DNA of 64,000 nt, taken from the NCBI GenBank assembly GCA_002281485.1, contig NCGF01000002.1, forward strand, positions 235,371 to 299,370, given 5' to 3'. The stretch comes from Sphingomonas sp. 28-66-16 (GTDB lineage Bacteria > Pseudomonadota > Alphaproteobacteria > Sphingomonadales > Sphingomonadaceae). This document shows positions 22,715 through 52,926 of the stretch, piece after piece (the stretch's first letter is position 1; each line of letters begins with the position of its first letter). A program made the position numbers and the translations under genes. Under the pieces are notes generated by a model. The model searched no databases. It saw nothing but the letters and a program-made list of their open reading frames with translations, and was not told where the DNA came from.

Positions 22715-22733
22715 TGGGTATTTTCCGATCCTG
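22715..22733 (+). promoter_or_regulatory. 19-bp repeated motif, copy 1 (upstream of response regulator)
   Basis: TGGGTATTTTCCGATCCTG. A -10-like TAGATG lies 22 bases downstream, and the response-regulator ATG is 60 bases downstream. It lies in the gap divergent from the hybrid regulator but points away from it. Confidence 0.75.
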
Positions 22734-22792
22734 ACAGACGCCAGTAACCAGCAGCTAGATGGAGTGTCCGTTTCGGGGCCGGAAAGACCGCC

Positions 22793-23161
22793 ATGACCAA
22801 GCCACTGCGCATTCTGATCGTTGAAGACGAAGAACTGATTGCCATGCTGCTCGCCGAAACGGTCGAGGCGCTGGGCCACGAGGTTTGCGCTACGGCAGCC
22901 ACGCAAGCAGCGGCGGTAGCTGCCGCCGAAGCGCTTCGCCCTGATCTCATGATCGTCGACTCAGGCCTGGGCGATAGCAGCGGCGTCGATGCGGTCGCGA
23001 CGATCCTCAAGACAAGCTTCATTCCGCACCTTTTCGTAACCGGCAACGCGCTTGAAGTCGCAGCGCGACGACCCGACGCCGTCATTCTGCAAAAACCGTT
23101 CTTTGTTCCCGAACTGGTAACCGCCATCGCCCGGGCACGTGCAATGCAGGCACGACCTTGA
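22793..23161 (+). CDS. Single-domain response regulator
   Basis: A 122-residue stand-alone receiver domain. It has the acidic pair VEDEE, the phospho-acceptor Asp in LMIVDSGLG (about residue 56), the Thr in LFVTGNA and the Lys in VILQKPF. There is no output domain. It is divergent from the hybrid kinase and headed by copy 1 of the 19-bp motif. It could act as a phosphate sink or feedback element in that phosphorelay, or as a diffusible CheY-like output. The kinase pairing is inferred from position only. Confidence 0.87.
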   Translation: MTKPLRILIVEDEELIAMLLAETVEALGHEVCATAATQAAAVAAAEALRPDLMIVDSGLGDSSGVDAVATILKTSFIPHLFVTGNALEVAARRPDAVILQKPFFVPELVTAIARARAMQARP

Positions 23162-23194
23162 CCGCGCCGCTATGCAACGCTGGATGGCTTGGAC

Positions 23195-23380
23195 TCACGC
23201 GGGGAGCGTCAGGACGCCCTGGACGAGGACCAGGGTCGGATCACCCGGATACTCGCTCGCGACGAAGACCATCGCGCGCTCCAGCTCGATCGCCGCATGA
23301 TTATCGCGGCTCTCAATCGCTTGCAGCGTGCGAATGCCCTGAGCCTCGGCGTAGGCGGCCACCAGATGCAGCATTTCCAT
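23195..23380 (-). CDS. Small hypothetical protein under the 19-bp motif
   Basis: A 61-residue frame on the minus strand (MEMLHLVAAYAEAQGIRTLQ..., ending LVLVQGVLTLPA). No family was recognised and the ribosome-binding site is weak. Its main support is the copy of the 19-bp motif at 23410-23428, which points toward it with a GATAAG -10-like box at 23386-23391. The predicted transcript start then falls at about the ATG, so translation would be leaderless or begin at the second Met (23374). The protein looks like a small soluble helix-strand domain. Confidence 0.45.
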   Translation of the reverse strand: MEMLHLVAAYAEAQGIRTLQAIESRDNHAAIELERAMVFVASEYPGDPTLVLVQGVLTLPA

Positions 23381-23409
23381 CCGCGCTTATCGATGCTCCC
23401 GGCAGCGTC

Positions 23410-23428
23410 CAGCTTCGGAAACTACCTA
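23410..23428 (-). promoter_or_regulatory. 19-bp repeated motif, copy 2
   Basis: On the minus strand it reads TAGGTAGTTTCCGAAGCTG. GATAAG follows after 18 bases. It points to the 61-residue frame at 23195-23380. Confidence 0.72.
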
Positions 23429-23603
23429 TACCGCTTGTATAACCGCTCGCCGCCAATGGATGATATGCTCGGTTCTCAACGAGTTCGGCTGGGATGTCGA
23501 AGCGCCCTGCGTGCGGGGCGTAGCGGGCGGATCAGTCTGGCGGCGTGGCGAATGCTTCAAGACGGCGGGTATTGCCCGACGAACCCGCACACCGCTTTAC
23601 CTC

Positions 23604-23622
23604 TGCGTATATTCCGATCCTG
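23604..23622 (+). promoter_or_regulatory. 19-bp repeated motif, copy 3 (upstream of RcnB-like gene)
   Basis: TGCGTATATTCCGATCCTG. TATCCA follows after 21 bases. The RcnB-like ATG is 61 bases downstream of the motif. Confidence 0.72.
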
Positions 23623-23682
23623 CCGCACGACAAAGCGGCACATTATCCAAATCGTCCGCAACACGAAATGCAGGATAGGTCG

Positions 23683-24237: not shown

Positions 24238-24260
24238 GCGCCCCGGGAAAAGGATCGACC

Positions 24261-24917: not shown

Positions 24918-25280
24918 GGGTCAATGGTCCTTTTTGCGCGCTTAGCGCCAATCACATGGGCGAATCCTGGCCAGCGTGATCCACCAAACGAGTCTGGCGG
25001 TCGCGCCACCGACAAAGGAGCGTTTGCAATCTGGCCATTCCCCCCGGGTTTTGCGTCGGCGGCTGTCTGCTGAGTGAGATAGGCTTTGGCAGACGCCGGT
25101 CTCAGGGTCGGAAACTACGCACCATCGCGAGCAAGATACGATTCTTGCGGGCTGGGTTGGCTGCGTAGATTCCGTCGCTCGCAGGCGATGTCGGTCAAGT
25201 CCATATCAGTCGGTGCATCAGCGTGGCTCTGGACAAACAGGCGCCTCGAGCCGTTGACCGCCCTCAACCAAGGCTTTCCC
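24918..25280. other. Intergenic region holding motif copy 4
   Basis: About 360 bases without a supported gene. Apart from the 19-bp motif at 25103-25121 nothing convincing is seen. The gap separates the leftward RWDNEGGA gene from the rightward SHOCT-domain gene. Confidence 0.45.
25103..25121 (-). promoter_or_regulatory. 19-bp repeated motif, copy 4
   Basis: On the minus strand it reads TGCGTAGTTTCCGACCCTG. The -10-like TATCTC (25076-25081) follows after 21 bases. It points left to the RWDNEGGA gene. Confidence 0.7.
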
Positions 25281-25517
25281 ATGACTGATTTCAACTCCCA
25301 TATGTTTTTCTTCGGTTGGGAATGGATCCTGTGGATAGGGTTCATCTTCCTCCTTTTCTCCAGTGTCGGTAACTGGGGCTATGCCTATCGTGCCCACCGC
25401 AAAGTTGACGGCGTACCGCGCCGCGACGCCTCAACGATAATAAACGAGCGATACGCGGCGGGCGAACTGACGCGCCCACAATATCTGGAGCTTAAGGCCG
25501 ATCTCGCTGCGAACTAG
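25281..25517 (+). CDS. SHOCT-domain membrane protein
   Basis: A 78-residue protein, MTDFNSHMFFFGWEWILW..., with one N-terminal membrane helix (WILWIGFIFLLFSSVGNWGYA). The short C-terminal SHOCT motif is INERYAAGELTRPQYLELKADL (positions about 56-77). SHOCT domains are small oligomerisation modules. The frame stays open upstream to 25086, but that part has no membrane or family character, so the internal ATG at 25281 is preferred. Its neighbours are a PRC-barrel protein and transketolase, in an apparent stress and energy block. Confidence 0.72.
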   Translation: MTDFNSHMFFFGWEWILWIGFIFLLFSSVGNWGYAYRAHRKVDGVPRRDASTIINERYAAGELTRPQYLELKADLAAN

Positions 25518-25618
25518 GCCATCACGCCCCGCGAGCCGGTTCATGGCGACACCGCGCTCGACGATCGTGCGGATGCGAAAGCCAAGCCGGTCGGCCCCCT
25601 CAATGTTAGGAGCGCATC

Positions 25619-26386
25619 ATGATTCTACAGGCGTCGAAGATTAAAGGGTTCAAGATCGAGGCCAGCGATGGAGCGATCGGATCGATCACCGATCTGCTTT
25701 TCGACGATTTGACCTGGCGCATTCGCTGGCTCGTGGTCGATACGGGCGGCTGGCTTTCAGGGCGCAGCGTTTTGTTGCCGCCTGCCGTACTCGGGCATGT
25801 CAATCACATCGGGCATCACTATGCGGTGCGGCTTACCCGGCAGCAGGTGAAGGACAGCCCATCGTTGGAAAGCCACGCGCCGGTATCGCGCCAGATGGAA
25901 TCCGGTCTGTATGACTATTATGGCTGGGCGCCTTATTGGTCGACCGGCTTCTACATGGGAGGCTATGGCTACACTGGCGGCATGATGGAGCCGCCAGGCC
26001 CGGGTTTCGAGCAGGCGGTAGCCGAAAAGGCCGTTCAGCAAGCGGGAGATCCCGGTCTGCGCAGCGTCCACGAGGTAACCGGATATCATCTGCACGCAAG
26101 CGACGGCGAGATCGGCCACGTCGCCGACTTCCTGATCGAGGATGCAGATTGGAGCATCCATTATCTAGTCGCCGATACGCGCAACTGGTGGCCCGGCAAG
26201 CATGTTCTGGTTTCGCCCCGGTCAATCGTCTCGACCGAATGGGCCGACCGTCTGGTCAACCTCGACATCAATCGTGAAAAGCTGAAGGGCGCGCCGGCCT
26301 ATGACGGATCGCAGGCGATCGACCGCGCGTATGAATATGCCTTTCACGCCTATTATGACGGCAAGCGCGTCGTCGAACCGGCCTGA
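25619..26386 (+). CDS. Protein with two PRC-barrel domains
   Basis: A 255-residue protein with two PRC-barrel units. The first is at about residues 1-75 (KIKGFKIEASDGAIGSITDLLFDD, WLVVDTGGWLSGRSVLLPP), the second at about 145-220 (GYHLHASDGEIGHVADFLIED, YLVADTRNWWPGKHVLVSP). A Tyr/Gly-rich linker joins them. PRC barrels bind partner proteins or RNA in ribosome maturation and photosynthetic reaction centres. The two-domain form is frequent next to stress genes in proteobacteria. AGGAG precedes the ATG at 25619. The transketolase GTG is 5 bases after its stop, so the two are likely co-transcribed. Confidence 0.83.
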   Translation: MILQASKIKGFKIEASDGAIGSITDLLFDDLTWRIRWLVVDTGGWLSGRSVLLPPAVLGHVNHIGHHYAVRLTRQQVKDSPSLESHAPVSRQMESGLYDYYGWAPYWSTGFYMGGYGYTGGMMEPPGPGFEQAVAEKAVQQAGDPGLRSVHEVTGYHLHASDGEIGHVADFLIEDADWSIHYLVADTRNWWPGKHVLVSPRSIVSTEWADRLVNLDINREKLKGAPAYDGSQAIDRAYEYAFHAYYDGKRVVEPA

Positions 26387-26391
26387 TCGAA

Positions 26392-28482
26392 GTGGCGCCT
26401 CCCGAAAAAGCGACTCACCGGTCAAAAGCTGATTTGTCGAGCGACGGCACGCCGCCGGACATCGACCAGCGTTGCATCGACACGATCCGGACGCTGTCGA
26501 TGGACGCCGTTCAGCGGGCCAATTCGGGCCATCCCGGCACGCCAATGGCACTCGCACCGGTGATCCATACGTTGTGGCAGCAATTTCTGCGCTTCGATCC
26601 CGCCGACGCTGACTGGCCCAACCGCGATCGGTTTGTGCTGTCCAACGGCCATGCCTCGATGATGCTTTACGCCATATTGTTTCTGGCAGGGGTTCGCAGC
26701 GTCGATCAGGAGGCGCTGACGCTCGACGACATCAAGGAGGTTCGCAGTCTCGGCAGCCGCTGCCCCGGGCATCCGGAACGGGGCGTCACCCCCGGCGTCG
26801 AGACCACCACCGGGCCGCTCGGCCAGGGGTGTGGTAACAGCGTCGGCATGGCGATTGCCGGCCGCTGGCTCGGCGCGCATTTCAATCGCCCCGGCTTCGT
26901 GCTGTTTGACCACGACGTCTACGCCTTTTGCGGCGATGGCGACATGATGGAGGGCGTCAGCAGCGAAGCCGCCGCGCTTGCCGGGCATCTGATGCTCGGC
27001 AACCTGTGCTGGATCTACGACCGCAACCGCGTCACCATTGAAGGCCATACCGATCTTGCCTTTACCGAAGATGTCGCGGCGCGGTTTCTGGCCTATGGCT
27101 GGAATGTCGAACAGGTCGGCGATGCCAATGACACCAATCGGCTTGCCGACGCATTCGCCGCGTTTCGCGCCAGCATCGACGTGCCGACCCTCATCATCGT
27201 CGACAGCCATATCGGTTACGGCGCGCCGCACAAGCAGGACACCAACGCCGCCCATGGCGATCCGCTTGGGCCAGAGGAAATCCGGCTCGCCAAACGCCGC
27301 TATGGCTGGCCGGAGGGGGAAGATTTCCATGTGCCGAAAGGGGTCGAGGCGCATTACCGCGAAGGTATCGGCGCTCGTGGCGCAGACTTAAGCGCAGCTT
27401 GGCGCGATATGCTGGAAGGCTATCGTGTCGCACATCCGGAGGCGGCCGAGACGCTTGACCGGATCATCGCCGGCACGCCGCCTGCGGGCGTTGCCGATGA
27501 TCTTCCACTGTTCGCTGCCGATGCCAAGGGGATCGCCACCCGCGAAGCCTCGGCAATCGTCCTAAATACCATCGCAGAGCGCTATTCGGAAATGATCGGC
27601 GGCGCCGCCGACCTCGCGCCTTCGACCAAGACGCGGCTCAATTTCACTGGCGCAGGCGATGTGGAAGCGCCTACGCCCGGCGGTCGCAACCTGCATTTCG
27701 GCATCCGCGAACATGCAATGGGGTCGATCAGCAACGGCCTCGCCCTGTCTGGCCTGCGCCCGTTCGACGCGACCTATCTGGTGTTTTCCGACTATATGAA
27801 GCCGGCGATCCGACTGTCGGCGCTGATGGCACTGCCGGTCATCCATGTGTTCACGCATGATTCGATCGGCGTCGGCGAAGATGGCCCGACGCATCAACCG
27901 ATCGAGCAGCTGGCAGCGCTGCGCAGCATGCCCGACATGCTGACCTTCCGGCCTGCCGACGCCAACGAAGTCGTCGCGAGCTGGCGCGCCATTGTCGCAC
28001 TCCGCCAGCCCGCGTGTCTCGTCCTCACTCGCCAGGCAGTACCGACGCTCGATCGCCGCCTTTATGCCGACGCCGCTGGGGTTGCACGCGGTGCCTATGT
28101 GCTGGCTGGGGACGTCGACACCACCCCCGATCTGATCCTGATCGCGACTGGCAGCGAAGTCGCGCCGTGCGTTGCTGCCTTTGAGACGCTCCGCGCCGAG
28201 GGGGTGGCGGTACGGGTCGTCAGCATGCCGTGCTGGGCGTTGTTCGAGGCGCAGGACAAAAACTATCGCGACAGCATCCTGCCGCCGCGTGTGATGGCCC
28301 GCGTTACCGTCGAGGCGGCCTCGCCGCTGGGTTGGGATCGCTACGCCGGTGCGGTCGGAACGATCATCGCCATGCGCAGCTTTGGCACGTCGGCGCCGAC
28401 TGCCGATGTGATGCGGCAGTTCGGCTTCACGGCCGCGCACGTGCTCGCAGCAGCGCGCCAGCAGCTCGCAGCCGCTGGATGA
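26392..28482 (+). CDS. tkt: Transketolase
   Basis: A 696-residue thiamine-diphosphate enzyme that moves two-carbon units between pentose-phosphate sugars. Family motifs are ANSGHPGTPMALAP, FVLSNGHASMMLYA, TTGPLGQGCGNSVGMA, and the ThDP/Mg site CGDGDMMEGVSSEAA. The pyrimidine domain has NLHFGIREHAMGSI and HDSIGVGEDGPTHQP. The start is GTG at 26392 without a clear ribosome-binding site, so translation may be coupled to the PRC-barrel gene. It overlaps zwf by ATGA, and rpe follows. It is one of several non-oxidative pentose phosphate enzymes gathered in this island. Confidence 0.96.
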   Translation: MAPPEKATHRSKADLSSDGTPPDIDQRCIDTIRTLSMDAVQRANSGHPGTPMALAPVIHTLWQQFLRFDPADADWPNRDRFVLSNGHASMMLYAILFLAGVRSVDQEALTLDDIKEVRSLGSRCPGHPERGVTPGVETTTGPLGQGCGNSVGMAIAGRWLGAHFNRPGFVLFDHDVYAFCGDGDMMEGVSSEAAALAGHLMLGNLCWIYDRNRVTIEGHTDLAFTEDVAARFLAYGWNVEQVGDANDTNRLADAFAAFRASIDVPTLIIVDSHIGYGAPHKQDTNAAHGDPLGPEEIRLAKRRYGWPEGEDFHVPKGVEAHYREGIGARGADLSAAWRDMLEGYRVAHPEAAETLDRIIAGTPPAGVADDLPLFAADAKGIATREASAIVLNTIAERYSEMIGGAADLAPSTKTRLNFTGAGDVEAPTPGGRNLHFGIREHAMGSISNGLALSGLRPFDATYLVFSDYMKPAIRLSALMALPVIHVFTHDSIGVGEDGPTHQPIEQLAALRSMPDMLTFRPADANEVVASWRAIVALRQPACLVLTRQAVPTLDRRLYADAAGVARGAYVLAGDVDTTPDLILIATGSEVAPCVAAFETLRAEGVAVRVVSMPCWALFEAQDKNYRDSILPPRVMARVTVEAASPLGWDRYAGAVGTIIAMRSFGTSAPTADVMRQFGFTAAHVLAAARQQLAAAG

Positions 28483-30026
28483 GCGACAAAGCTGCCCCTC
28501 GCGTGGCCGCGCCGGTGATCGGCGATCCGTGTGCGATCGTTATCTTCGGCGCAGGCGGTGACATGACCAAAAGACTTATGGTCCCGGCGCTGTATAATCT
28601 GGCACGCACAGGCGTGCTGCCGCAGGATTTTGCCATCATCGGCGTCGATTTGGCAGCCGGCACGGCAGCGAGCTGGTGCAATAGCCTGCACGATATGCTG
28701 GCCAGCTTCATCGGCGACGAACGCGCCGAATTCCGGATCGACCATATCGACACGGCGGTGTGGGAAGGGCTGGCCGCCCGGATGACCTATCTCCAGGGCG
28801 ACATCACCAAGCCACAGGTTTACGCCGATATCGCCGCCGGGCTCGAAGCCGCAGCCAAGGAGCATGGCACGCAGGGCAATGCCATTTTCTACCTAGCCGT
28901 TGCGGGTAGTTTTTTCGCGAGCGTCGTCGAGCAGTTGGCCGATGCCAAGCTCACCGAGGACACCGGCACGCCTCATTGGCGCCGCGTCGTCGTCGAAAAA
29001 CCCTTTGGCCACAGCCTCGCCTCAGCCCAGGCGCTCAACCGTGACATTCTCAAGACACTGCGCGAAGACCAGATTTTCCGGATCGACCATTTTCTGGGCA
29101 AGGATACGGTGCAGAGCATTATGGCGCTGCGCTTTGCCAATGGCCTGTTCGAGCCGATCTGGAACCGCGACCGGATCGACCATGTCCAGATTACCGTCGC
29201 TGAGACGGTGGGGGTCGAGACGCGCGGCAAATTCTATGAGGCGACGGGCGCGCTGCGCGATATGGTGCCCAATCACATCTTCACATTGCTATCGATGGTC
29301 GCGATGGAGCCGCCCACCGGCTTCGACGCAGCCTCGATCCGGTCGCGCAAGGCGGATGTCTTTGCAGCTATGGCGGCGGCCCGGCCGGACCAGTCGGTGC
29401 GCGGCCAATACGGCTCGGGCTCGGTCCGCGACCGCCCTGTGCCAAGCTATCGCCAGGAGCCCGAGGTCGCTACCGACTCCCTTGTCGAAACCTATGTCGC
29501 GATGGAGCTGGCGATCGACAACTGGCGCTGGGCCGGCGTGCCGTTTTACTTCCGCACCGGCAAGCATCTGACCAAGCGCAGCACCGAGATCGCCATCCGC
29601 TTCAAGCAAGCTCCGTTTGCCGCTTTTCGCGATACGCCGGTGGATAGCTTGCGGCCCAACTGGCTGGTGCTGCGGATCGCGCCCGACGAAGGTATTTCGC
29701 TGCAATTCGAGGTCAAGCGCCCGGGGTCTGCGGTCGATCTGGCGGCGGTAAAGATGGATTTCCATTATGCTGACTGGTTCCCCAAGGAGCCCAATGTCGG
29801 CTATGAAACGCTGATCCGCGATGTGATGGTGGGCGACCAGACGCTGTTCATGCGCGCCGACATGGTCGAGCAGGGGTGGCGGATCGTCCAGCCGGTGCTC
29901 GATGCCTGGGCCGCAGATGCGGATGGTCCCGATGGCTACGCATCCGGCAGCGACGGACCGGCGGCGGCAGCTGCATTGCTCGCGCGGAGCGGGCGCGACT
30001 GGCGGCCGATCGGCATCCCGGCATGA
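28479..30026 (+). CDS. zwf: Glucose-6-phosphate dehydrogenase
   Basis: A 515-residue oxidoreductase that makes 6-phosphogluconolactone and NAD(P)H. The nucleotide-binding loop is IFGAGGDMTKR (instead of the common GASGDL), the substrate loop VVVEKPFGHS, and the catalytic region FRIDHFLGKDTVQ carries the active-site His. The start ATGA overlaps the tkt stop and the end overlaps rpe, so this is a tightly coupled operon. No 6-phosphogluconolactonase gene was found nearby, although gnd is present, so that step must be encoded elsewhere or be spontaneous. Confidence 0.96.
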   Translation: MSDKAAPRVAAPVIGDPCAIVIFGAGGDMTKRLMVPALYNLARTGVLPQDFAIIGVDLAAGTAASWCNSLHDMLASFIGDERAEFRIDHIDTAVWEGLAARMTYLQGDITKPQVYADIAAGLEAAAKEHGTQGNAIFYLAVAGSFFASVVEQLADAKLTEDTGTPHWRRVVVEKPFGHSLASAQALNRDILKTLREDQIFRIDHFLGKDTVQSIMALRFANGLFEPIWNRDRIDHVQITVAETVGVETRGKFYEATGALRDMVPNHIFTLLSMVAMEPPTGFDAASIRSRKADVFAAMAAARPDQSVRGQYGSGSVRDRPVPSYRQEPEVATDSLVETYVAMELAIDNWRWAGVPFYFRTGKHLTKRSTEIAIRFKQAPFAAFRDTPVDSLRPNWLVLRIAPDEGISLQFEVKRPGSAVDLAAVKMDFHYADWFPKEPNVGYETLIRDVMVGDQTLFMRADMVEQGWRIVQPVLDAWAADADGPDGYASGSDGPAAAAALLARSGRDWRPIGIPA

Positions 30027-30760
30027 TGGCGATTCCGGCCCCCGCCAGCGACACCGCCCCGCCATCGGTCATCATAGCGGCCTCCATCCTCGCGGCGGAT
30101 TTCGGGCACCTTGCCGATGAAGTTCACGCGGTAGATGCCGCCGGGGCGGACTGGATCCATGTCGACGTGATGGACGGCCGCTTCGTGCCGGAAATCACCA
30201 TTGGTCCCGGCGTCGTGGCAGCGATCCGCCGAAGCACGGCAAAACCGCTGAACGTCCATCTGATGATCGTCGAGCCCGACCGGCAGATCGCTGCCTTTGC
30301 AGCGGCCGGCGCCGATCACATCCTCATCCATGCCGAGGCGACCGCAACGGTCCATCTCCACCGCGTGCTCGGCGAAATCCGAGCGCTCGGGTGCAAAGCG
30401 GGGGTCGTACTCGATCCGGCCACGCCTGCGGCGATGATCGACTATGTGCTTCAGCTTTGCGATATCGCAATGGTGATGACGGTCAGTCCCGGCGCGGGTG
30501 GCCAGGCCTTCCTGCCCGACATGTTGCCCAAGATTCGTCACCTGCGCGCGCTGTGCAACGAACGCGGGCTCGTGCCGATCATCGAGGTCGATGGCGGCCT
30601 GGATGATGAGACGACGGGCCTCGCAATTGCCGCGGGCGCCAGTGCCATTGCGGCGGGCAGCGCGATCTTCGGGTCGCCCGATTATGCAGCAGCAATCGCC
30701 GGCATCCGCCGATCGGCCCGCGCCGCGCCGACCGACATCATGCCTCGCATCAGTCCTTGA
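30023..30760 (+). CDS. rpe: Ribulose-phosphate 3-epimerase
   Basis: A 245-residue TIM-barrel epimerase interconverting ribulose-5-P and xylulose-5-P. Motifs are IIAASILAADFGHL, WIHVDVMDGRFVP with metal ligands, LNVHLMI and IIEVDGGLDDET. The usual M-S-V-N-P-G-F-G-G loop reads MTVSPGAGGQAF, with Asn to Ser and Phe to Ala, which may alter the active site. The first of two tandem ATGs (30023) overlaps the zwf stop. The stop codon itself lies inside copy 5 of the 19-bp motif, which drives the next operon. Confidence 0.93.
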   Translation: MMAIPAPASDTAPPSVIIAASILAADFGHLADEVHAVDAAGADWIHVDVMDGRFVPEITIGPGVVAAIRRSTAKPLNVHLMIVEPDRQIAAFAAAGADHILIHAEATATVHLHRVLGEIRALGCKAGVVLDPATPAAMIDYVLQLCDIAMVMTVSPGAGGQAFLPDMLPKIRHLRALCNERGLVPIIEVDGGLDDETTGLAIAAGASAIAAGSAIFGSPDYAAAIAGIRRSARAAPTDIMPRISP

Positions 30761-30776
30761 GTAGTTTCCGATCCCG
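30758..30776 (+). promoter_or_regulatory. 19-bp repeated motif, copy 5 (upstream of gnd operon)
   Basis: TGAGTAGTTTCCGATCCCG. Its first three bases are the rpe stop codon. The -10-like box is weak (CAAGTT after 21 bases). The gnd start is 82 bases downstream. Confidence 0.68.
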
Positions 30777-30858: not shown

Positions 30859-31905
30859 ATGCAGATAGGAATTATCGGCCTTGGCCGCATGGGCCTCAAC
30901 ATCGGTATCCGCCTGTCCGATGCCGGCCATGACTGCGTGGTGTTCGACCGGGACCCCGCCGCGACTACCGCAGCCGTCGCCAAGGGGCTGAAGGGGGCAG
31001 ACGATCTGGCCGCGATGCTGGCAATGCTCGCTCCGCCGCGCCTGGTATGGCTGATGCTGCCGGCGGCGGTCGTCGACGGCGCAATCGCCGATCTCGTCCC
31101 CGGGCTTATCGAAGGCGACGTGGTCGTCGATGGCGGCAACAGCCATTATCTCGACGATCTTCGCCGCGCTCAGGCGCTGGGGTCGGCGGGGCTCCACTAT
31201 GTCGATGTCGGGGTCAGCGGCGGCGTATGGGGTCGCGAGCGCGGGTTCTGCCATATGATCGGCGGCGAGCACGATATCGTCCAGCGCCTCGACCCGATTT
31301 TCCGGTCGCTGGCGCCCGGTGTTGCGGCGGCAGCGCGCACGCCCGGCGCGACGGGTGAACCCGGCAATGCCGAACTGGGCTATCTCCACTGCGGCCCCGC
31401 AGGCGCAGGGCATTTCGTCAAGATGGTCCATAATGGCATCGAATACGGCATGATGGCGGCACTTGCCGAAGGGCTGAATGTCCTGCGCCATGCCAATGTC
31501 GGCGCAGGCGTGCATGCTGCGGATGCGGAAACCGCACCACTGCGTGAGCCCGAACATTATCGCTATGATTTCGACATGGCTGCCGTCAGCGAGGTCTGGC
31601 GGCGCGGCAGCGTCATTTCCTCATGGCTGCTCGATCTGGCGGCGGGGGCGCTGCGCGCCGATCCCGGTCTCGATCATTTTGCGGGCCGCGTTTCCGATTC
31701 GGGTGAGGGGCGCTGGACGCTGCAGGTCGCGATCGACGAAGGCGTGCCGGCACCGGTGCTCGCCACCGCCTTGTTCGCGCGGTTCGAATCGCGCGGCGCT
31801 GCCGATTATGCCGATCGCTTGCTGTCTGCGCTGCGCTTCGGCTTTGGCGGCCATCTGGAAAAAACGGCCGCGGCGGCACCGGTCGCCGAGCCCGCACCGC
31901 AATGA
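30859..31905 (+). CDS. gnd: 6-phosphogluconate dehydrogenase, decarboxylating (short YqeC/GntZ type)
   Basis: A 348-residue enzyme. It has the N-terminal Rossmann motif IGIIGLGRMGLNIG, the substrate loop VVDGGNSHYLDDL and the catalytic stretch GPAGAGHFVKMVHNGIEYGMM with Lys and Asn. The length is that of the shorter GntZ/YqeC group rather than the 470-residue enteric Gnd. A TTGGAG site precedes the ATG. It is first in a four-gene unit, gnd-tal-pgi-phosphatase, each overlapping the next by ATGA, preceded by motif copy 5. It supplies ribulose-5-P and a reduced pyridine nucleotide. Confidence 0.93.
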   Translation: MQIGIIGLGRMGLNIGIRLSDAGHDCVVFDRDPAATTAAVAKGLKGADDLAAMLAMLAPPRLVWLMLPAAVVDGAIADLVPGLIEGDVVVDGGNSHYLDDLRRAQALGSAGLHYVDVGVSGGVWGRERGFCHMIGGEHDIVQRLDPIFRSLAPGVAAAARTPGATGEPGNAELGYLHCGPAGAGHFVKMVHNGIEYGMMAALAEGLNVLRHANVGAGVHAADAETAPLREPEHYRYDFDMAAVSEVWRRGSVISSWLLDLAAGALRADPGLDHFAGRVSDSGEGRWTLQVAIDEGVPAPVLATALFARFESRGAADYADRLLSALRFGFGGHLEKTAAAAPVAEPAPQ

Positions 31906-32999
31906 AAGTCCCTGCCATGCTCGCGCCCGCAACCGCCGCCCTCAGTCGCCTCGGCCAGAGCCTGTGGCTGGACAACATCACCCGCGATCTGCTCGATCAT
32001 GGCACACTGCAGCACTATATCGACACGATGTCGGTTACCGGGCTGACGTCCAACCCGACGATCTTCGACAAGGCCATCGCCAGCAGCACCGCTTATGATG
32101 CCGAGATCCGGGATCGCCACAGTGCAGGCGAAAGTGACGAGACGCTATTCTTCCATCTTGCGATCGCAGATCTTCGACGCGCTGCCGATCTGTTCGCAAC
32201 AGTCTATGCCGCGCGCTGCGGCGTTGATGGCTTTGTATCGCTGGAAGTGTCGCCGCAGCTGGCGCACGACACCGACGCGACGATCGCTCAGGCCAAGTCG
32301 CTCCACGCCAGTGCGGCGCGCGCCAATCTGTACATGAAGATACCGGGCACGGCGGAAGGGATACCGGCGATCGCCGAATGCATATTCGCGGGTGTGCCGG
32401 TAAACGTCACGCTGCTATTTTCGGTCAGCCAGTACCGCGCGGCGGCCGATGCCTGGCTGAACGGGCTCGAACGGCGCGTCTCCGCAGGGCTGGCGCCCGA
32501 TACCGCCTCAGTCGCGTCGCTGTTTGTCAGCAGGTGGGACGTTGCAGTTGCCGATCGCACTAGCGCGCCGCTCCGTAATACGCTGGGCATTGCCATTGCC
32601 GGGCAGGTATACCGAGCGTACCGCGAAACGCTCGAATCCGATCGTTTCCAGCGGCTGCAGAATTTTGGCGCGCGGGCGCAACGGCTGTTGTTCGCGAGCA
32701 CCGGGACGAAGGACCCGGCTGCCTCGGACACGCTTTATGTCGGCGCGCTGGCGGCACCAAACACGATCAACACCTTGCCCGAAGGAACATTGCAGGCGTT
32801 TGCCGCGCATGGCTATACGCCCGCCACGATGAGGCATGCGGCGGGCGAGGCCGATGCGATGGTGGCGCGGCATGTGGCGGCGGGCATCGATATCGACGCG
32901 CTCGGCGCCCAATTGCAGGAAGAAGGCGCCCGATCCTTCGTCGCGTCATGGCAAAGCTTGCTTGCGGCGATTGCGCGCAAGCGCCAGCAGGCGGCATGA
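31902..32999 (+). CDS. tal: Transaldolase
   Basis: A 365-residue transaldolase of the actinobacterial/cyanobacterial-like class. Motifs are [40 protein letters not shown] and the Schiff-base Lys in [16 protein letters not shown], with [19 protein letters not shown] following. The region [18 protein letters not shown] closes the active site. It transfers dihydroxyacetone units between sugar phosphates, linking Pgi/Zwf products to pentose phosphates. It overlaps gnd and pgi by 4 bases each, so the three are co-expressed. Confidence 0.94.
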
Positions 33000-39004: not shown

Positions 39005-39006
39005 GC

Positions 39007-41522: not shown

Positions 41523-41541
41523 GAGGATCGGAAACTACTTA
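41523..41541 (-). promoter_or_regulatory. 19-bp repeated motif, copy 7 (toward xfp)
   Basis: On the minus strand it reads TAAGTAGTTTCCGATCCTC. TATACC (41495-41500) follows after 22 bases. Copy 8 lies back to back 7 bases away, so the two make an inverted repeat. Confidence 0.78.
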
Positions 41542-41548: not shown

Positions 41549-41567
41549 TGGGTAGTTTCCGACACTG
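41549..41567 (+). promoter_or_regulatory. 19-bp repeated motif, copy 8 (toward manA)
   Basis: TGGGTAGTTTCCGACACTG, divergent from copy 7. The -10-like box is weak (TGACAA after 20 bases). The manA start is 35 bases downstream. Confidence 0.72.
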
Positions 41568-44141: not shown

Positions 44142-44160
44142 TGCGTAGTTTCCGAGCCTC
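44142..44160 (+). promoter_or_regulatory. 19-bp repeated motif, copy 9 (upstream of ackA-atp)
   Basis: TGCGTAGTTTCCGAGCCTC, followed after 20 bases by TATAGG (44181-44186). The ackA ATG is 82 bases downstream of the motif. Confidence 0.78.
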
Positions 44161-44242: not shown

Positions 44243-47241
<2,999 letters not shown>

Positions 47242-47245
<4 letters not shown>

Positions 47246-47529
47246 GCGACGCTGATCCGTCGCCGCAAGACCCGCTGATCGCCAGCATCCGCCTGCGCGG
47301 CGAACGCGAAGCACGCTGGCTGCGCGACGGCGAGGAATCGGTTGCGCGCAGGCTGGCGCAAATCGGCGTGCTCGGCTGGATTTCGGTGGTGCCGATGCTG
47401 ATCGGCATTTTTGTTGGGCGATGGCTGGACCGGACCTATCAAACCGGCATCTTCTGGACTGCGCCACTGCTGATGCTCGGCGCGGCGTTCGGTTGCTGGT
47501 CGGCCTGGCGCTGGATCAGGAACGCATGA
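47242..47529 (+). CDS. atpQ: N-ATPase accessory membrane protein AtpQ (AtpI family)
   Basis: A 95-residue protein with a charged N-terminus (IASIRLRGEREARWLRDGEE) and two membrane helices, ARRLAQIGVLGWISVVPMLI and FWTAPLLMLGAAFGCWSAWR. Position and size match AtpQ of the N-ATPase operon, an AtpI-like protein thought to help c-ring assembly or Mg uptake. It overlaps both neighbours by 4 bases. Confidence 0.85.
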
Positions 47530-47798
47530 TGCCCGGGCTCGCCGTCGTCGCCTGGTTCGCCTTGGGCAGTGCCGTGGGCGCTGCTTATTTCGCTGGCATC
47601 TGGTGGAGCGCGGCGCAGTTTGCCCGGGGCGGGCGCGTCACGATGACGATCGTGCTGGCGCTGATACGGCTGGCGGTGCTCGGCGGGCTGCTCACACTGG
47701 CCAGCGTCCAGGGGGCCGGACCGTTGCTGGCGATGGCGGTGGGCATCGTGCTGGCCCGCTTCGGCGTGATGCGCCGGGTGCGGCGGGTCGCGCCATGA
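47526..47798 (+). CDS. atpR: N-ATPase accessory membrane protein AtpR
   Basis: A 90-residue protein of almost wholly hydrophobic character with about three helices (LAVVAWFALGSAVGAAYFAG; VTMTIVLALIRLAVLGGLL; LLAMAVGIVLARFGVMRRV). AtpR is specific to N-ATPase operons; a role in c-ring assembly has been proposed. The ATG at 47526 overlaps the atpQ stop, and a longer upstream reading is only a shadow of atpQ. Confidence 0.83.
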   Translation: MMPGLAVVAWFALGSAVGAAYFAGIWWSAAQFARGGRVTMTIVLALIRLAVLGGLLTLASVQGAGPLLAMAVGIVLARFGVMRRVRRVAP

Positions 47799-48481
47799 TG
47801 TCGCCGCTCGGCAGCGTCACACTGTTTCACCTCGGGCCGGTGCCGGTTTCGCAGGCCGTGGTCACGACCTGGGCGATCATGGCGCTGCTCACACTCGGCG
47901 CGATCATTGTCTCGCGGTTACTCAGGCAAGCGCCGACGCGCAGCCAAGCACTGTTCGAGCTAATCGTCGACACTGTCGACAGCGAAATCCGCAACACCAT
48001 GCAGGTCGATCCTGGCCCGTATCGCGCCTTTATCGGCACGATTTTCCTGTTCATCTTCGTCGCCAACTGGTCGACGCTGATTCCGGGCGTCGCGCCTCCG
48101 ACCGCGCGGCTCGAGACCGATGCCGCACTCGCACTGCTGGTGTTTCTTGCGGTGATCTGGTTCGGCATCCGTTCGGGCGGGGTCGGCGGCTATCTCGCGA
48201 CCTTTGCCACGCCCAATGTGCTGATGATCCCGCTCAATCTGGTCGAAAGCGTCACCCGCGCCTTTTCGATGTTCGTCCGGCTGTTCGGCAATGTGATGAG
48301 CGGCGTGTTCGTGATCGGTATCGTCCTGACGCTCGCTGGGCTGCTCGTGCCGATCCCGTTGATGGCGCTCGATCTGCTTACCGGCGCGGTGCAGGCCTAT
48401 ATCTTCGCTGTGCTGGCAATGGTGTTCATCAGCAGCGCGCTTCCCACAACTCAGCCTAAACAGAAAAGGACGGCACCATGA
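47795..48481 (+). CDS. atpB: N-ATPase Fo a subunit
   Basis: A 228-residue membrane subunit that carries ions between the membrane half-channels and the c ring. About five or six helices are seen. The conserved Arg is in AFSMFVRLFGNVMSG, and GAVQAYIFAVLAMVFISSAL forms the last helix. The start ATGA overlaps atpR, and it overlaps atpE. Confidence 0.93.
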   Translation: MMSPLGSVTLFHLGPVPVSQAVVTTWAIMALLTLGAIIVSRLLRQAPTRSQALFELIVDTVDSEIRNTMQVDPGPYRAFIGTIFLFIFVANWSTLIPGVAPPTARLETDAALALLVFLAVIWFGIRSGGVGGYLATFATPNVLMIPLNLVESVTRAFSMFVRLFGNVMSGVFVIGIVLTLAGLLVPIPLMALDLLTGAVQAYIFAVLAMVFISSALPTTQPKQKRTAP

Positions 48482-48723
48482 ACTGGTTGGCCCTTTGCAG
48501 TATCATTTCGGCCGCGTTCGCCGTGTCGTTCGGCGCAATCGGCCCGGCGCTCGCCGAAGGGCGCGCGGTCGCAGCCGCGATGGACGCGATCGCGAGACAG
48601 CCCGAATCGGCCAACACGATCTCGCGCACGCTGTTTGTCGGTCTCGCGATGATCGAGACGACGGCGATCTATTGCCTGGTGATCGCGCTGCTTCTGCTGT
48701 TCGCCAACCCGCTGCTGAAGTGA
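48478..48723 (+). CDS. atpE: N-ATPase Fo c subunit with two carboxylates
   Basis: An 81-residue helical hairpin. Helix 1 has GAIGPALAEGRAVAAAMDAI (Glu27) and the loop ARQPE. Helix 2 has LAMIETTAIYCLVIALLLL with the ion-carrying Glu60 and the following Thr61, Thr62 and Tyr65, which match the positions of Na+ ligands in sodium ATPases. In sodium c rings the position of Glu27 is Gln. Paired carboxylates are typical of N-ATPases, and both Na+ and H+ transport have been argued for them, so the ion stays open. Confidence 0.93.
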   Translation: MNWLALCSIISAAFAVSFGAIGPALAEGRAVAAAMDAIARQPESANTISRTLFVGLAMIETTAIYCLVIALLLLFANPLLK

Positions 48724-48727
48724 CGCG

Positions 48728-49459
48728 ATGAGCATCGACTGGTGGACGCTTGGCTTCCAGACCGTCAATGTCGCGGTCCTGATTTGGCTACTCGGGCATT
48801 TTTTCTGGAAGCCCGTTGCGGCAATGATCGAGGCGCGCCAAGCTGCGGCAGATAAAGTGACCGGCGAGGCCGAGGCAGCGCGCGCAAAGGCCGATGCCGC
48901 ACTGGCCGATGTCGAGAAAACGCGTGCGGGCTTTGCCAAGGAGCGAGAGGCGATCCTCTCCGATGCCCATCAGGCTGCCGAAGCAGCGCGCACCAAGACG
49001 CTGGCTGAGGCTCAGACTGCGGCGGAAGCGACCGAGGCCGCGGCCAAGGCGGCAATCGCCAAGGACGACCAGGTGCTGCAAAAGGCCTGGGCCGCGCGAT
49101 CGGCTGATCTGGCTGTCGATATCGCCGGTCGGCTGTCGGCGAGGATGGACAGCAAAGCAGTGCAGGCCAATTTCCTGGACGATTTGCTGCGCGAAATCCG
49201 TGACCTTCCTGAAGCGGCGCGCAAGGCCGTGCGCGCGGAAGACGTAACGTTGGAATTGAGAAGTGCGGTCAAGATCGACGCTGCCGCGCGCAAAAGCTGC
49301 GGCATATCGATCGGCGAGGCATTCGGGGGTGCGCCGAAACTCACCTTCAAGACCGATCATAAGCTGATCGCCGGGTTCGAACTCCATGGCGAGCACCTGG
49401 TCGTATCGAGCAGCTGGCGCGCCGATCTGGCAGCGATCAAGGCCGATCTCGCGACATGA
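48728..49459 (+). CDS. atpF: N-ATPase b subunit with delta-like C-terminal extension
   Basis: A 243-residue subunit. The N-terminal membrane helix ([20 protein letters not shown]) leads into a long Ala/Glu/Lys-rich coiled coil. The last 60 or so residues ([20 protein letters not shown]...[13 protein letters not shown]) resemble the C-terminal part of delta/OSCP. No separate atpH is present in the operon, as in other N-ATPases, so this extension probably replaces delta at the top of F1. Confidence 0.9.
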
Positions 49460-50964
49460 ACGCGCCCGACACCTGGCTGGAGGAGGCGCGGCGCAAGCTC
49501 GACGGCACCGCGCCCACCGCCCATGCCGAACAGATTGGCCGGGTCGAGGAAGTCGGCGACGGAATCGCGTTGGTTTCGGGGCTGCCGGGCGTGCGGCTCG
49601 ACGAATTGCTCCGCTTCGAGCGCGGTCAGTACGGCTTTGCGCAGATGCTCGATGAGGATCGCATTGGCTGCGTGCTACTCGATGACGTCGATGGCGTGGA
49701 GGCGGGCGACAGCGTGCGCGGCACCGGCGATGTCGTGCGCGTTCCGGTTGGGGCCGCGCTATTGGGGCGGGTCGTCGATCCGCTCGGCCGCCCGCTAGAC
49801 GGCAAGGGACCGATCGAAAGCGACAATCTGATGCCTATCGAACGGCCCGCGCCGTCGATCATCGACCGCGATCTGGTCGTCGATCCAGTCCAGACCGGCC
49901 TCGTCGTGATCGACGCATTGTTTGCGCTTGGGCGCGGGCAGCGCGAGCTGATCATTGGCGACCGCGCGATCGGCAAGACCACGATCGCGATCGACACGAT
50001 CATCAATCAGAAGCACAGCGACATTGTCTCCATCTATGTCGCGGTCGGCCAGAAAAGCTCGAGCGTGCGCCGCGCGATCGATGCGATCCAGCAAGAGGCC
50101 GCGCCCGAACGCTGCATCATCGTCGTCGCCAGCGCCGCCAGCTCACCCGGACTGCAATGGATCGCACCCTTCGCCGGCATGACGATGGCCGAGCATTTTC
50201 GCGATACGGGCGACCACGCGCTGATCGTGATCGACGACCTGACCAAGCATGCCGCCACCCACCGCGAAATCGCGTTGCTGACGCGGCAGTCGCCGGGGCG
50301 CGAGGCCTATCCCGGCGACGTCTTCTACGTCCATGCGCGACTGCTCGAGCGCGCATCGAAGCTGTCGAAGGCCAGGGGCAGCGGCTCGCTCACTGCGCTG
50401 CCGATCGCCGAAACCGATGCAGGAAACTTAAGCGCCTATATCCCGACCAATCTCATATCGATCACCGACGGGCAGATCGTGCTCGATGCAAAGCTGTTCT
50501 ACGAAGGCCAAAAACCGGCCGTGGATGTCGGCACCAGCGTCAGCCGCGTCGGCGGCAAGACCCAGGCACATGCGTTGCGTGCGGCGGCGCAGACGCTGCG
50601 GCTTGATTATGCGCAGTTCCTCGAACTCGAAAGCTTTACCCGCTTCGGCGGAATGCCCGATACGCGCGTCCGCCAGCAATTGACGCGGGGGCAGCGCATC
50701 AGGGCGATCCTCAACCAGATTCAGCACGCGCCGCTGCGGCTTGCCGATGAGGTTGCGCTAGTGCTCGCGGTACAGGGCGGATTGCTCGACGTGCTGCCGC
50801 TGTCGGCGATCTCCGACTTTCGAAAGGGTCTGGCCGACATGATCGATCGCGACGCTACCGATGCCGTCGCGATGATCCAGAACGACGGCACGCTCGACGA
50901 CGATGACAAGGCGACGCTGATAACTGCCCTGGATACCTATGCCAAAAGCGTCGCACCCGCATGA
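49456..50964 (+). CDS. atpA: N-ATPase F1 alpha subunit
   Basis: A 502-residue nucleotide-binding, non-catalytic subunit. Its P-loop reads [15 protein letters not shown] (the common form is GDRQTGKT). Further motifs are [54 protein letters not shown] and [20 protein letters not shown]-like [16 protein letters not shown]. It overlaps atpF and atpG by 4 bases. Confidence 0.96.
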
Positions 50965-51821
50965 CGTTGCGCCTGGCCGATATCGGCGCGCGGATCGAGG
51001 GCGTCGAGCAACTTGGTGCGGTGGTCAACGCGATGCGCGGCATTGCCGCCGCACGTGCGCAGCAGGCGCGGACCCAGGTCGCCGCCGTCGACACTTATGC
51101 AGCAACGATCGCGATCGCGATTGGCCGGGCGTTGGCGCTGATGCCGTCGCCCATCCCCGCCGATGAGGTAGCAGTGCCGGACCCGGCCGCGCCCAAACCG
51201 GCGTTGGTAGTGTTCGCGGCCGAGCAGGGATTTGCCGGCGCTTTCAGCGAGCATGTCTTTGCATCGCTTGGCGATCAACTCGCGGGATCGCGGCTGTTCC
51301 TGCTGGGCAGTCGTGGGGCGTCGCTTGCTGCAGAGCGCGGGTTCGCGCCTGTGTGGAGTAGCGCAATGCCATCGCATTCGGGCGGAACGCCCAAGCTGGC
51401 GGAGCAGGTCAGCGCGGCGCTATATGCGGGCATTGCCAAGGGCGAGATCGGCAGGCTGGATGTAATCTTCAGCCAGCGCGACCCCGGCCAATCCGCGGTG
51501 ATCAAACGGGTGGCGCTGTTGCCGCTTGATCTCTCGCGCTTTCCAAGTACTCACCAGGCCAGTCCGCCACTCCATAATCTGGACCCGGCCGAGCTTGTCG
51601 CTGGCTTGGCCGCCGATTATCTCCACGCTCAACTCTGTCAGGCGGCGCTCCACTCCTTCGCGACGGAGAACGAGGCTCGGATGGAAGCGATGGCGGCAGC
51701 GCGCGACCAGGTTGCGCGGCAACTGGCTGAGCTTCAGGCGACAGAGCGACGAGTGCGACAGGAAGACATCACCGCCGAGGTGATCGAACTGGCCGCAGGT
51801 GCTGTCGCGAGCCGAGGATAG
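50961..51821 (+). CDS. atpG: N-ATPase F1 gamma subunit
   Basis: A 286-residue central-stalk subunit. The N-terminal coiled coil ([20 protein letters not shown]) and C-terminal helix ([20 protein letters not shown]) flank a Rossmann-like core with [16 protein letters not shown]. The sequence is diverged from housekeeping gamma subunits, as expected for N-ATPase. It is the last gene of the operon; no terminator hairpin was seen before the convergent lipoprotein gene 18 bases away. Confidence 0.88.
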
Positions 51822-51839
51822 AGGCGGCAGTCAGGGCCG

Positions 51840-52334
51840 TTACGGTCGCTCGTAAACGAAGTGAGCGGTAACGGGAGTTGCGGTGCTGCTTCTGGTGACC
51901 CGAAACTCGATCGGATATCTTCCGGGGCTGGGCAGCTGGGCATATCGCCCATACGACTGGATTCCAGCACTGGACATAAATTCCATCGGCAGCCACCCAG
52001 AGGTCCGCGCGCTTGAGCCCCCGAGCCGAACGGCCACGCTGGCGTTCTTGATGCGCGTCTTTGAGCGCGTTTCGAACACAGCCAGAACGATGTGGTAGGA
52101 ATTGGGTGATTGAGGTTGTGGCATTTGCATCGATGCGTTGGAGGGAGCGCCCATATCTTTCGATGCGATCGCGCCCTTGACGATGCCGTAGTAGAATGTC
52201 AGCCCGCCGATTGCCTTGGTTTGCGGTGTCAATTTCTCAACCTGCGAAGTCTTGCGCTGTTGCGTGCAGCCAGACGTCGTCAGCGAGGCCAACAAGCCAA
52301 CGATGAGCGCGGCGGGAAGGGAATTCGGGTTCAC
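51840..52334 (-). CDS. Hypothetical lipoprotein
   Basis: A 164-residue protein with a lipoprotein signal (MNPNSLPAALIVGLLASLTTSGC), the Cys being at about residue 23. The mature part has a beta-rich look: GGLTFYYGIVKGAI, SYHIVLAVFETRSKTRI, SVAVRLGG and a C-terminal HFVYERP. No family was recognised with confidence; the pattern recalls small periplasmic beta-sandwich proteins. The start codon is GTG, with no ribosome-binding site. Motif copy 10 and TAATTT place the transcript start at about this codon, so translation may be leaderless. It is convergent with the atp operon. Confidence 0.7.
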   Translation of the reverse strand: MNPNSLPAALIVGLLASLTTSGCTQQRKTSQVEKLTPQTKAIGGLTFYYGIVKGAIASKDMGAPSNASMQMPQPQSPNSYHIVLAVFETRSKTRIKNASVAVRLGGSSARTSGWLPMEFMSSAGIQSYGRYAQLPSPGRYPIEFRVTRSSTATPVTAHFVYERP

Positions 52335-52367
52335 CCGTACAAATTAATCGGTCGGCCTGTTAACGTG

Positions 52368-52386
52368 GAGGATCGGAATCTACGCA
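52368..52386 (-). promoter_or_regulatory. 19-bp repeated motif, copy 10 (upstream of lipoprotein)
   Basis: On the minus strand it reads TGCGTAGATTCCGATCCTC. TAATTT (52341-52346) follows after 21 bases. The gene starts 33 bases downstream. Confidence 0.75.
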
Positions 52387-52907
52387 GTGCGGGCAACGTT
52401 TCATTTGCTGAACGGCGCCTGCTAACGGGAGAAACGCAGCGCCCCCTTCCAGGTCAATGTCGGGTGGGGCACCCGCTCGTCATCGCCGCCATTGCAAGTT
52501 TGAACGAATGCCGAAGCCCAGCGCGGCGACAAGACTTTGGCTGAACCGCGGTTCAGATGTGCAGCATCAGCGGCCCCTGGTCGGGCCGATGCGACACATA
52601 ACGAACCGACGATAGAACCACGCCAAGTGCACCCCAACTGCGCTGCTCACAAACACAATGAGACGCCTGAATTGAGCTGATACAGAGATTGGCAGGGTGA
52701 ACGGTGGGAGCGACCAGTATCAATGGCGCGACCAGGAGCTGACCGGTCAGCGACGAACACGGCAGCACGCGACCGGAATATAGCCGACTTGCCTGGATGA
52801 TCTTGACCTCGATGACCGTGATGTTGGGACCGATGTATTTCAGCAATGATTTGTGTCTGAGGCGAGCCACTCTGCATACGATGGAACAGCTTCTCGGTGC
52901 AATTGCC
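52387..52907. other. Gene-poor spacer between two motif copies
   Basis: About 520 bases of lower coding quality. A 105-codon minus-strand frame (52553-52870) exists but has no ribosome-binding site or recognisable features. Motif copies 10 and 11 lie at its two edges and point outward. Confidence 0.4.
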
Positions 52908-52926
52908 TGAGTATTTTCCGATGCTG
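52908..52926 (+). promoter_or_regulatory. 19-bp repeated motif, copy 11 (upstream of Spy-like gene)
   Basis: TGAGTATTTTCCGATGCTG. TAGTGA follows after 22 bases. The gene start is 93 bases downstream of the motif. Confidence 0.72.

Follow-up and report, generated by a model that had tools for sequence, protein, structure and literature searches.

A 64,000-nucleotide stretch of contig NCGF01000002.1 of Sphingomonas sp. 28-66-16 (hereafter the window; coordinates are those of the window unless stated otherwise) raises the question of which protein reads a 19-bp motif that recurs across 30 kb of it and what this protein controls. An initial annotation, made from the letters alone, had reported 11 copies of the motif, in a place where an activator would contact RNA polymerase. 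Our analysis indicates that the motif is probably the operator of a FixJ-type DNA-binding domain, represented here by the C terminus of a 1,466-amino-acid (aa) fusion protein encoded at 18222 to 22622 on the minus strand, which would regulate the operons of the island.

All 11 copies are present at the coordinates and on the strands originally reported (up to three mismatches allowed; 100 dinucleotide shuffles gave a mean of 0.02 and a maximum of 1), and the shared bases listed in the initial annotation (T1, GTA at 4 to 6, TTCCGA at 9 to 14, and C17) hold in each of them. An exact 17-base pattern (TNNGTANNTTCCGANNC) retrieved those 11 sites alone from the whole genome (3,136,252 bases, 86% complete), with no match for its reversed control. 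A second pattern (TNNGTANNTTCCNNNNCT), in which positions 13 and 14 were freed and T18 was required, gave 11 genome matches, all within the island (reversed control, 2 matches); it misses the copy at 30758, which has CC at positions 17 and 18. A 12th and weaker copy, which is absent from the earlier list and has one core mismatch, lies at 25162 on the plus strand (TGCGTAGATTCCGTCGCTC). The two whole-genome scans thus returned only these 12 sites, all within 30 kb, so the regulon is local as far as the 86%-complete assembly shows. In the window there is no match outside 22715 to 52926, in agreement with the earlier remark that the motif is lacking upstream of the glycan locus and the copper genes. 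Genes resembling a copper-type P-type ATPase and a multicopper oxidase (55663 to 61387, by eye) adjoin the island and carry no operators. A known RNA element was dropped as a candidate after an Rfam search of 17000 to 56000 gave no matches at gathering thresholds.

To place the motif relative to genes, we combined the window with 33 stretches of relatives' genomes (L142 to L174) and 30 named loci (L080 to L109), which yielded 165 distinct strict sites after de-duplication by 60-bp context; these loci were picked for carrying the motif or the fusion, and the number of sites is therefore no measure of abundance. The extended consensus is TRVGTAGWTTCCGANSCTG. Over 164 sites, 96% of which have T18, it reads T R V G T A G W T T C C G A N S C T G; bases 13 and 14 are GA, and GG occurs in 20 of 182 sites. 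Genes were called with a home-made codon-bias gene finder, which underlies the genic, distance, and first-gene counts given here. Only 3 of the 165 sites fall inside called genes, compared with 84% of 5,000 random positions, and none of the 11 strict sites of the window does. Four short control patterns had most of their matches inside genes (70/88, 114/142, 14/24, and 24/38), and the fully reversed pattern had no match. A same-strand gene follows within 400 bp at 139 of the 165 sites (random positions, 16%), and start codons most often lie approximately 70 to 135 bp from the motif start.

The sites also hold a -10-like element in phase. With one site dropped near a locus edge (n = 164), TAnnnT occurs 11, 24, and 18 times at offsets 40, 41, and 42 from the motif start (53 in total) and 0 to 3 times at any other offset from 18 to 65. 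A TA lies within positions 36 to 43 at 105 of the 164 sites, compared with 26% in shuffled flanks. In the window, a TA starts 40 to 42 bases from the first base of the motif at nine of 11 sites (the exceptions being 30758 and 41549), and the earlier observation that a TA-rich hexamer follows nine copies was thus essentially right. If the TAnnnT hexamer is the -10 element, the motif would cover approximately -52 to -35, an activator position, with C17-T18-G19-n-C21 overlapping a weak -35 element. This geometry, recurring in many genomes, strongly supports the placement first proposed (about -52 to -34) and the reading of the motif as a promoter or activator element. Frequent occurrence inside genes had been named in the initial annotation as an observation that would speak against a promoter role; because the sites are intergenic, directed at genes, and phase-locked with a -10 element, the sequence half of that objection falls away.

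Which protein would bind these sites is suggested by the motif itself and by the neighboring gene. The initial annotation had likened the motif to FixJ-type sites, and this hint proved right: its core is identical at 9 of 10 bases to the class I FixJ site obtained by systematic evolution of ligands by exponential enrichment (SELEX), GTAGTTTCCC, with the last base changed (PMC4999443). Positions 4 to 12 read GTAGWTTCC and are followed by G instead of C, which makes it an operator of the GTAGTTTCCC / GTAMGTAG kind for which binding is predicted. The adjoining open reading frame (ORF) at 18222 to 22622 (1,466 aa from a GTG start; 1,460 aa according to the codon-bias gene finder) encodes a CheB-CheR-PAS-HisKA-HATPase-REC-REC-HTH fusion (Pfam), our proposed regulator, in which kinase, receiver, and helix-turn-helix (HTH) domains are all on one chain (Pfam and NCBIfam). 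Its kinase histidine (SHDLRQP) and one aspartate per receiver are retained, as judged by eye. Residues 1258 to 1455 score 237.8 bits against the NCBIfam FixJ model NF006900 (cut-off, 255), and the nearest solved structure to this FixJ-like end is FixJ 5xso (E = 1.8e-43), which we take to be the FixJ of Bradyrhizobium japonicum. The best-scoring NCBIfam match of the whole protein is a NahK/ErcS'-type core at residues 872 to 1239 (344.7 bits). Within its own genome, the fusion carries one of four GerE domains and is the sole match to its own receiver-receiver-HTH segment at E <= 1e-30; no other FixJ-like protein was found at this threshold in the 86%-complete assembly. Its FixJ-like part is the C terminus of a 1,466-aa ORF and not a stand-alone protein of approximately 200 aa with a FixL partner. 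The initial annotation had described the genes behind the motif as central-carbon, ATPase, signaling, and small-protein genes; such classes are indeed found, and the regulator gene itself had been missed. In another genome (G801, C221:3236-7567), the fusion gene has one in-frame TAG in the search output, which may reflect either an assembly error or decay.

Computation shows that the motif and FixJ-ended fusions co-occur. Among 61 relatives, including the genome studied here, a loose pattern matched in 22, with 25 matches in G030, 11 in our genome, 9 in G032, 6 in G021, 5 in G059, and 1 to 3 in the rest; most genomes of the same genus have none, and the trait is patchy among relatives. A family sample of 397 genomes contained 12 with the FixJ-ended fusion (11 found by search, with G419 aligned only from residue 664, plus G202, in which the gene is split over two contigs). 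At least four motif copies were present in 7 of these 12 and in 1 of the 385 genomes without the fusion (G150), a threshold that, like the inclusion of the split gene, was chosen after the counts were seen. At least one loose match was present in 11 of the 12 and in 92 of the 385, the stray matches being counted without regard to position. In a class sample of 385 alphaproteobacterial genomes, a tighter pattern, taken from the 164-site consensus and thus derived partly from named loci that possibly share genomes with the sample, matched in 14 of the 16 fusion-bearing genomes and in 12 of the 369 others; when our own genome is left out, the proportions are 13 of 15 and 12 of 369 (Fisher's test, p ~1e-15), and these 15 fusion-bearing genomes lie in 13 families. 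Among named loci with a FixJ-ended fusion and flanking DNA (27 loci, i.e., the 29 from L080 to L108 less L092, which has no flank, and L096, which has no FixJ part), 23 contain a strict site; the others are L081, L102, L108, and L093, the last with only a TTCCGG form. Named carriers include Rhodopila, Bosea, Rhizobium, Neoroseomonas, Lichenifustis, Hyphomonas, and Oceanibacterium. The genome and plasmid samples are not independent, since they overlap (G303 with a Sphingomonas paeninsulae plasmid and G193 with a Polymorphobacter megasporae plasmid). Fusion and motif also occur together in two metagenome-assembled records labeled Acidobacteria and Candidatus Kuenenia (L101 and L104), reflecting either transfer beyond Proteobacteria or a binning error.

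Natural variants of the fusion separate its parts. Close homologs that end near residue 1240, before the FixJ part, are accompanied by no site genome-wide in four genomes (G236, G186, G095, and G429), by none within 22 kb in Aquisediminimonas (L096), and by none within 24 kb on a plasmid of Methylocystis bryophila. Among 16 distant family homologs aligned only to residues 30 to 900, 4 genomes have one stray loose match each and 12 have none; among four class genomes with only this type of homolog, three have none and one (G519) has two sites and a FixJ-type HTH elsewhere. G519 has a related gene (45% identity) whose 916-aa frame is interrupted by two stops and which lies 9 kb from one of the two sites and 27 kb from the other. 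Conversely, G513 has sites beside an 881-aa PAS-kinase-receiver-receiver-HTH ORF (L190, 3546 to 6191) with a FixJ-type end and, by eye, no CheB or CheR, and in G713 a pair of sites brackets a short HTH ORF (72% identity across 65 residues). Among the remaining motif-bearing class genomes without the fusion, G612 has only a 35%-identical related gene elsewhere in the genome, and 8 of the 12 have no FixJ-type HTH relative at E <= 1e-20 and one or two matches each. Since the motif stands beside FixJ-ended proteins and is absent beside the shortened homologs, the operator follows the HTH domain and not CheB/CheR. CheB/CheR as the defining partner was rejected in view of the sites beside the 881-aa fusion (domains by eye) and of those in islands with FixL/FixJ-like pairs.

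Such pairs occur in two genomes that have the motif and no fusion, i.e., G032 (9 sites) and G150 (12 sites), where genes for FixJ-like proteins (207 to 209 aa) adjoin those for FixL-like kinases. Of the two pairs in G032, one (L144, 7277 to 13039) belongs to an apparent operon in which the motif, phosphoketolase (xfp), acetate kinase (ackA), a fixL-like gene, and a fixJ-like gene follow one another on one strand, nearly overlapping; this regulator pair shares a run with its likely targets. Three FixL-like proteins score 495 to 500 bits against NF041777 (cut-off, 850). The PAS domain of one of them (L143) aligns with FixL 1dp6, matching the His in DRSxHD and the Arg after IG, which we take to be the heme-ligand and heme-pocket residues of FixL. 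The presence of these pairs in the same islands is the best evidence for low oxygen as the kind of cue that would be sensed, and this suggestion draws on gene content as well; oxygen sensing by the fusion itself does not follow from it.

The arrangement of sites around the fusion gene recurs. At 26 of 39 non-redundant loci that include the start of a FixJ-ended fusion, a site lies within 800 bp upstream and faces away, toward a divergent gene (counts that include TTCCG forms; L097 seems shortened). Only one upstream site, the window copy at 23410, points the same way as the fusion; it lies 798 bp away, with another gene in between. Of the downstream sites, 15 point onward and 3 point back. The gene that most often stands first behind the motif encodes a single receiver of approximately 120 aa; this cluster, defined by BLAST linkage, has 15 members in 14 genomes or loci, 12 of which come first behind the motif (the window member alone was checked with Pfam). 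Twenty plasmid records match at least 80% of the fusion, and among those listed, 18 reach the FixJ end and two, from M. bryophila, do not. Regions from 12 plasmids with the FixJ-ended form contain at least one strict site in 11 cases, and L189 has only TTCCGG. The best plasmid match is a conjugative plasmid of S. paeninsulae, whose first 33 kb, at a distance from the fusion gene, contain 12 strict sites. The fusion gene is also carried by two plasmids labeled betaproteobacterial, one from Caballeronia SBC2, where three sites adjoin the gene, and one from Roseateles XES5, with a single site (record flagged UNVERIFIED_ORG). Distant fusion genes (46 to 50% identity) lie in polysaccharide loci of the Agrobacterium pusense and Roseateles XES5 plasmids (L180, 9572; L183, 9764), each with one operator ahead of a divergent response-regulator gene, and possibly represent the same switch wired to exopolysaccharide. 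A tentative proposal, which we regard as somewhat doubtful, is that a horizontally moving and often plasmid-borne cassette combines one conserved operator and a FixJ-type output with a sensor that is swapped between lineages; in its large form, the methylesterase (CheB) and methyltransferase (CheR) domains of chemotaxis would be part of a transcription factor, perhaps as an adaptation memory. The sensor may then take the form of a CheB-CheR-PAS-kinase fusion, a PAS-kinase fusion without CheB/CheR, or a FixL-like partner.

In the window, the first copy (22715 to 22733, plus strand) precedes the gene for a stand-alone 122-aa receiver-domain protein (22793 to 23161, plus; Pfam), divergent from the fusion gene. 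The copy at 23410 to 23428 (minus) precedes an ORF of 59 to 61 aa (23195 to 23374 as called; an acetyltransferase-like fragment by eye), and that at 23604 to 23622 (plus) an RcnB-family protein (Pfam), whose ATG is 79 bases from the motif start. The weaker copy at 25162 to 25180 (plus; a TTCCGT form) heads a same-strand run (25281 to 30760) with genes for a SHOCT-like protein (by eye), a PRC-barrel protein, transketolase, glucose-6-phosphate dehydrogenase, and ribulose-phosphate epimerase; on the S. paeninsulae plasmid, an identical TTCCGT form precedes the SHOCT gene. The copy at 30758 to 30776 (plus; no TA at the -10 place) is located 101 bases before the start of gnd and the run that it opens, i.e., 6-phosphogluconate dehydrogenase, transaldolase, glucose-6-phosphate isomerase, and a histidine-phosphatase-like protein (30859 to 35226, plus). 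On the minus strand, the copy at 41523 to 41541 lies 114 bases before the start of phosphoketolase, which is followed by a class I fructose-bisphosphate aldolase and a mannobiose-phosphorylase-like protein (36676 to 41427). Facing away from it, the copy at 41549 to 41567 (plus; again no TA at the -10 place) lies 54 bases before a mannose-6-phosphate isomerase-like gene (41603 to 42595). The copy at 44142 to 44160 (plus) is 101 bases before acetate kinase, behind which comes a second F-type ATPase operon (44243 to 51821 in all, plus; beta, c, and alpha subunits assigned by models and the others by position), and that at 52908 to 52926 (plus) is 112 bases before an LTXXQ-motif protein (53020 to 53586; Pfam).

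Three window sites have weak or odd targets. At 35224 to 35242 (plus), the next called gene encodes triose-phosphate isomerase, 552 bases on; at 52368 to 52386 (minus), the target is a putative 164-aa lipoprotein-like ORF whose GTG is 52 bases from the motif start and which the codon-bias gene finder did not call; and at 25103 to 25121 (minus), a strong operator with a -10 element has no convincing ORF downstream and could drive a small RNA or an unrecognized small protein. The genes behind the sites thus comprise oxidative and nonoxidative pentose-phosphate enzymes, phosphoketolase, class I aldolase, the mannobiose-phosphorylase-like protein, acetate kinase, the second ATPase, and small stress-like proteins. 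In its operon (45402 to 51821), this ATPase has beta first and alpha late and resembles alternate or N-type ATPases, with the alternate-subunit models below their cut-offs (beta, TIGR03305, 621.6 versus 752; alpha, TIGR03324, 603.9 versus 750.5; c, TIGR03322, 117 versus 130.85); the cut-offs of the ordinary atpD and atpA models and of PRK13468 (c) are reached. According to Pfam and to record annotations, the genes behind or near sites in relatives encode phosphoketolase, acetate kinase, oleate hydratase, BON, PRC-barrel, and ferritin-like proteins, alcohol dehydrogenases, and transhydrogenase, among others, and the arginine deiminase pathway is near, not directly behind, a site on the Caballeronia plasmid. 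Such gene sets allow ATP synthesis and redox balancing in the absence of full respiration.

From these elements we infer binding, activation rather than repression, a phosphorelay, its cue, and any role of CheB/CheR, as follows. The PAS-kinase would receive a cue, most probably a fall in oxygen or a failure of respiration, and phosphate would pass from the histidine to receiver 1 and then to receiver 2, directly or via the 122-aa single-receiver protein. Phosphorylation would free the HTH domain to bind operators at -52 to -35, where it would touch RNA polymerase at promoters whose -35 element is poor and whose -10 element is TA-rich. The activated operons would supply a pentose-phosphate/phosphoketolase/acetate-kinase route that yields ATP by substrate-level phosphorylation, together with the second F-type ATPase and small stress proteins.

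The sites might instead serve an ordinary stand-alone FixLJ pair encoded elsewhere, with the adjoining fusion feeding in or being unrelated. The motif accompanies FixL/FixJ-like pairs without any fusion in G032 and G150, several genomes (e.g., G030, G303, and G213) hold both the fusion and a stand-alone FixJ-like protein, and our assembly is incomplete. We nevertheless consider this unlikely, given that a stand-alone FixJ-like protein was not found in the genome itself at E <= 1e-30, that 14 of the 16 class-sample genomes with the fusion have the motif, and that the layout of sites around the fusion gene recurs. A strong, phase-locked, two-part signal with fixed spacing would also suit the promoter of an alternative sigma factor. 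This was set aside as improbable, since the downstream box resembles a housekeeping -10 in being rich in TA, positions 17 to 22 (C T G n C n) resemble a weak TTGACA at 18-bp spacing, the upstream bases match a known FixJ target, and presence tracks FixJ-type HTH domains, even the short ORF between two sites in G713. Confinement to one island and the plasmid-borne state of the fusion gene in relatives could point to a dispersed repeat or mobile-element remnant with no regulatory role; it is very improbable indeed and was dropped because conservation stops at the ~19-bp motif and the -10, with flanks that differ between sites, and orientation and distance to starts are constrained. FixK as an intermediate was set aside, since the motif, judged by eye, does not form an FNR-type palindrome.

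Several points weigh against assigning the motif to the FixJ-type end of the fusion, an assignment that is computational and in which binding and expression are predictions. In the window, two sites (30758 and 41549) have no -10 TA and one (25103) has no clear gene behind it, and a separate FixLJ could be missing from an 86%-complete genome. Model scores are just under the NCBIfam FixJ cut-off of 255 for the fusion (237.8) and the stand-alone proteins (231 to 247) alike. The FixL/FixJ-like pair of G150 is ~3 kb from its nearest site, and one of the two in G032 is ~8 kb away. Fusions are found with no site in G468 and G488 (class), in G419 (family), and at L081, L102, and L108, with only the TTCCGG form at L093 and on plasmid locus L189, and with no upstream site within 800 bp at 13 of 39 loci. 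The stray loose copies in 92 of 385 fusion-free family genomes, the five scattered matches of G059, and the selection of threshold and pattern described above count on the same side.

If the FixJ-type assignment is true, FixJ-type control would extend beyond nitrogen-fixation cascades and include a transferable set of genes for fermentation, a second ATPase, and stress, and the loci would offer a case of sensor exchange on a fixed operator. Many of the carrier bacteria are regarded as aerobes. One class of CheB-CheR proteins would then end in a domain that binds DNA; with an operator and a regulon predicted for it, and with natural variants that lack the output, the function of the fusion becomes directly testable by reporter. 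Among the matches listed by full-text searches of an open-access library, no title or abstract beginning describes a CheB-CheR-FixJ fusion or such a regulon; the matches listed for an exact-string search are mostly unrelated primer, microRNA, and animal papers.

Among known systems, surveyed CheB-CheR hybrids (Rhodospirillum centenum RC1_3878 [PMC2890560] and the CheB/methyltransferase-bearing histidine kinases of an Azospirillum table [PMC4618731]) share the fused CheB and CheR, in the latter case within histidine kinases; the parts of these surveys available to us mention neither a DNA-binding output nor an operator or regulon for them. NahK/ErcS'-type hybrid kinases (NF041832 and NF041831) share the kinase core, for which the fusion is below the cut-offs (400 and 1500), and the fusion extends this core by a FixJ-like output. 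The hybrid two-component systems (HTCS) of Bacteroides likewise join kinase and transcription regulator in one polypeptide and control catabolic genes; they have a membrane sensor and serve polysaccharide use (PMC11253607), whereas the fusion has a CheB-CheR-PAS input and an HTH domain of the LuxR/FixJ kind. The closest parallel is rhizobial FixJ (PMC4999443), which has the same receiver and LuxR-type HTH output, operator core (GTAGTTTCC), and promoter-proximal geometry. The initial annotation had regarded the full motif and regulon as unfamiliar; this stands for the extended form and the regulon, but the core had already been published there, along with the S. meliloti fixK site (TAAGTAATTTCCCTTA). 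Bases 1 to 12 of the motif fit FixJ sites, whereas bases 13 and 14 (GA, sometimes GG) and CT at 17 and 18 differ; we therefore assign it, as a FixJ-type operator, to a specificity group of its own, with a predicted regulon of fermentation and energy genes. The FixJ-like output is here fused to CheB-CheR-PAS-kinase, with no stand-alone FixJ found in the genome at E <= 1e-30. Its predicted targets are carbon, ATPase, and stress genes, whereas the reconstructed FixJ regulon comprises nifA, fixK, fixX, and SMc03253 (one proline hydroxylase gene) in Rhizobiales and fixK in Caulobacterales (PMC4999443).

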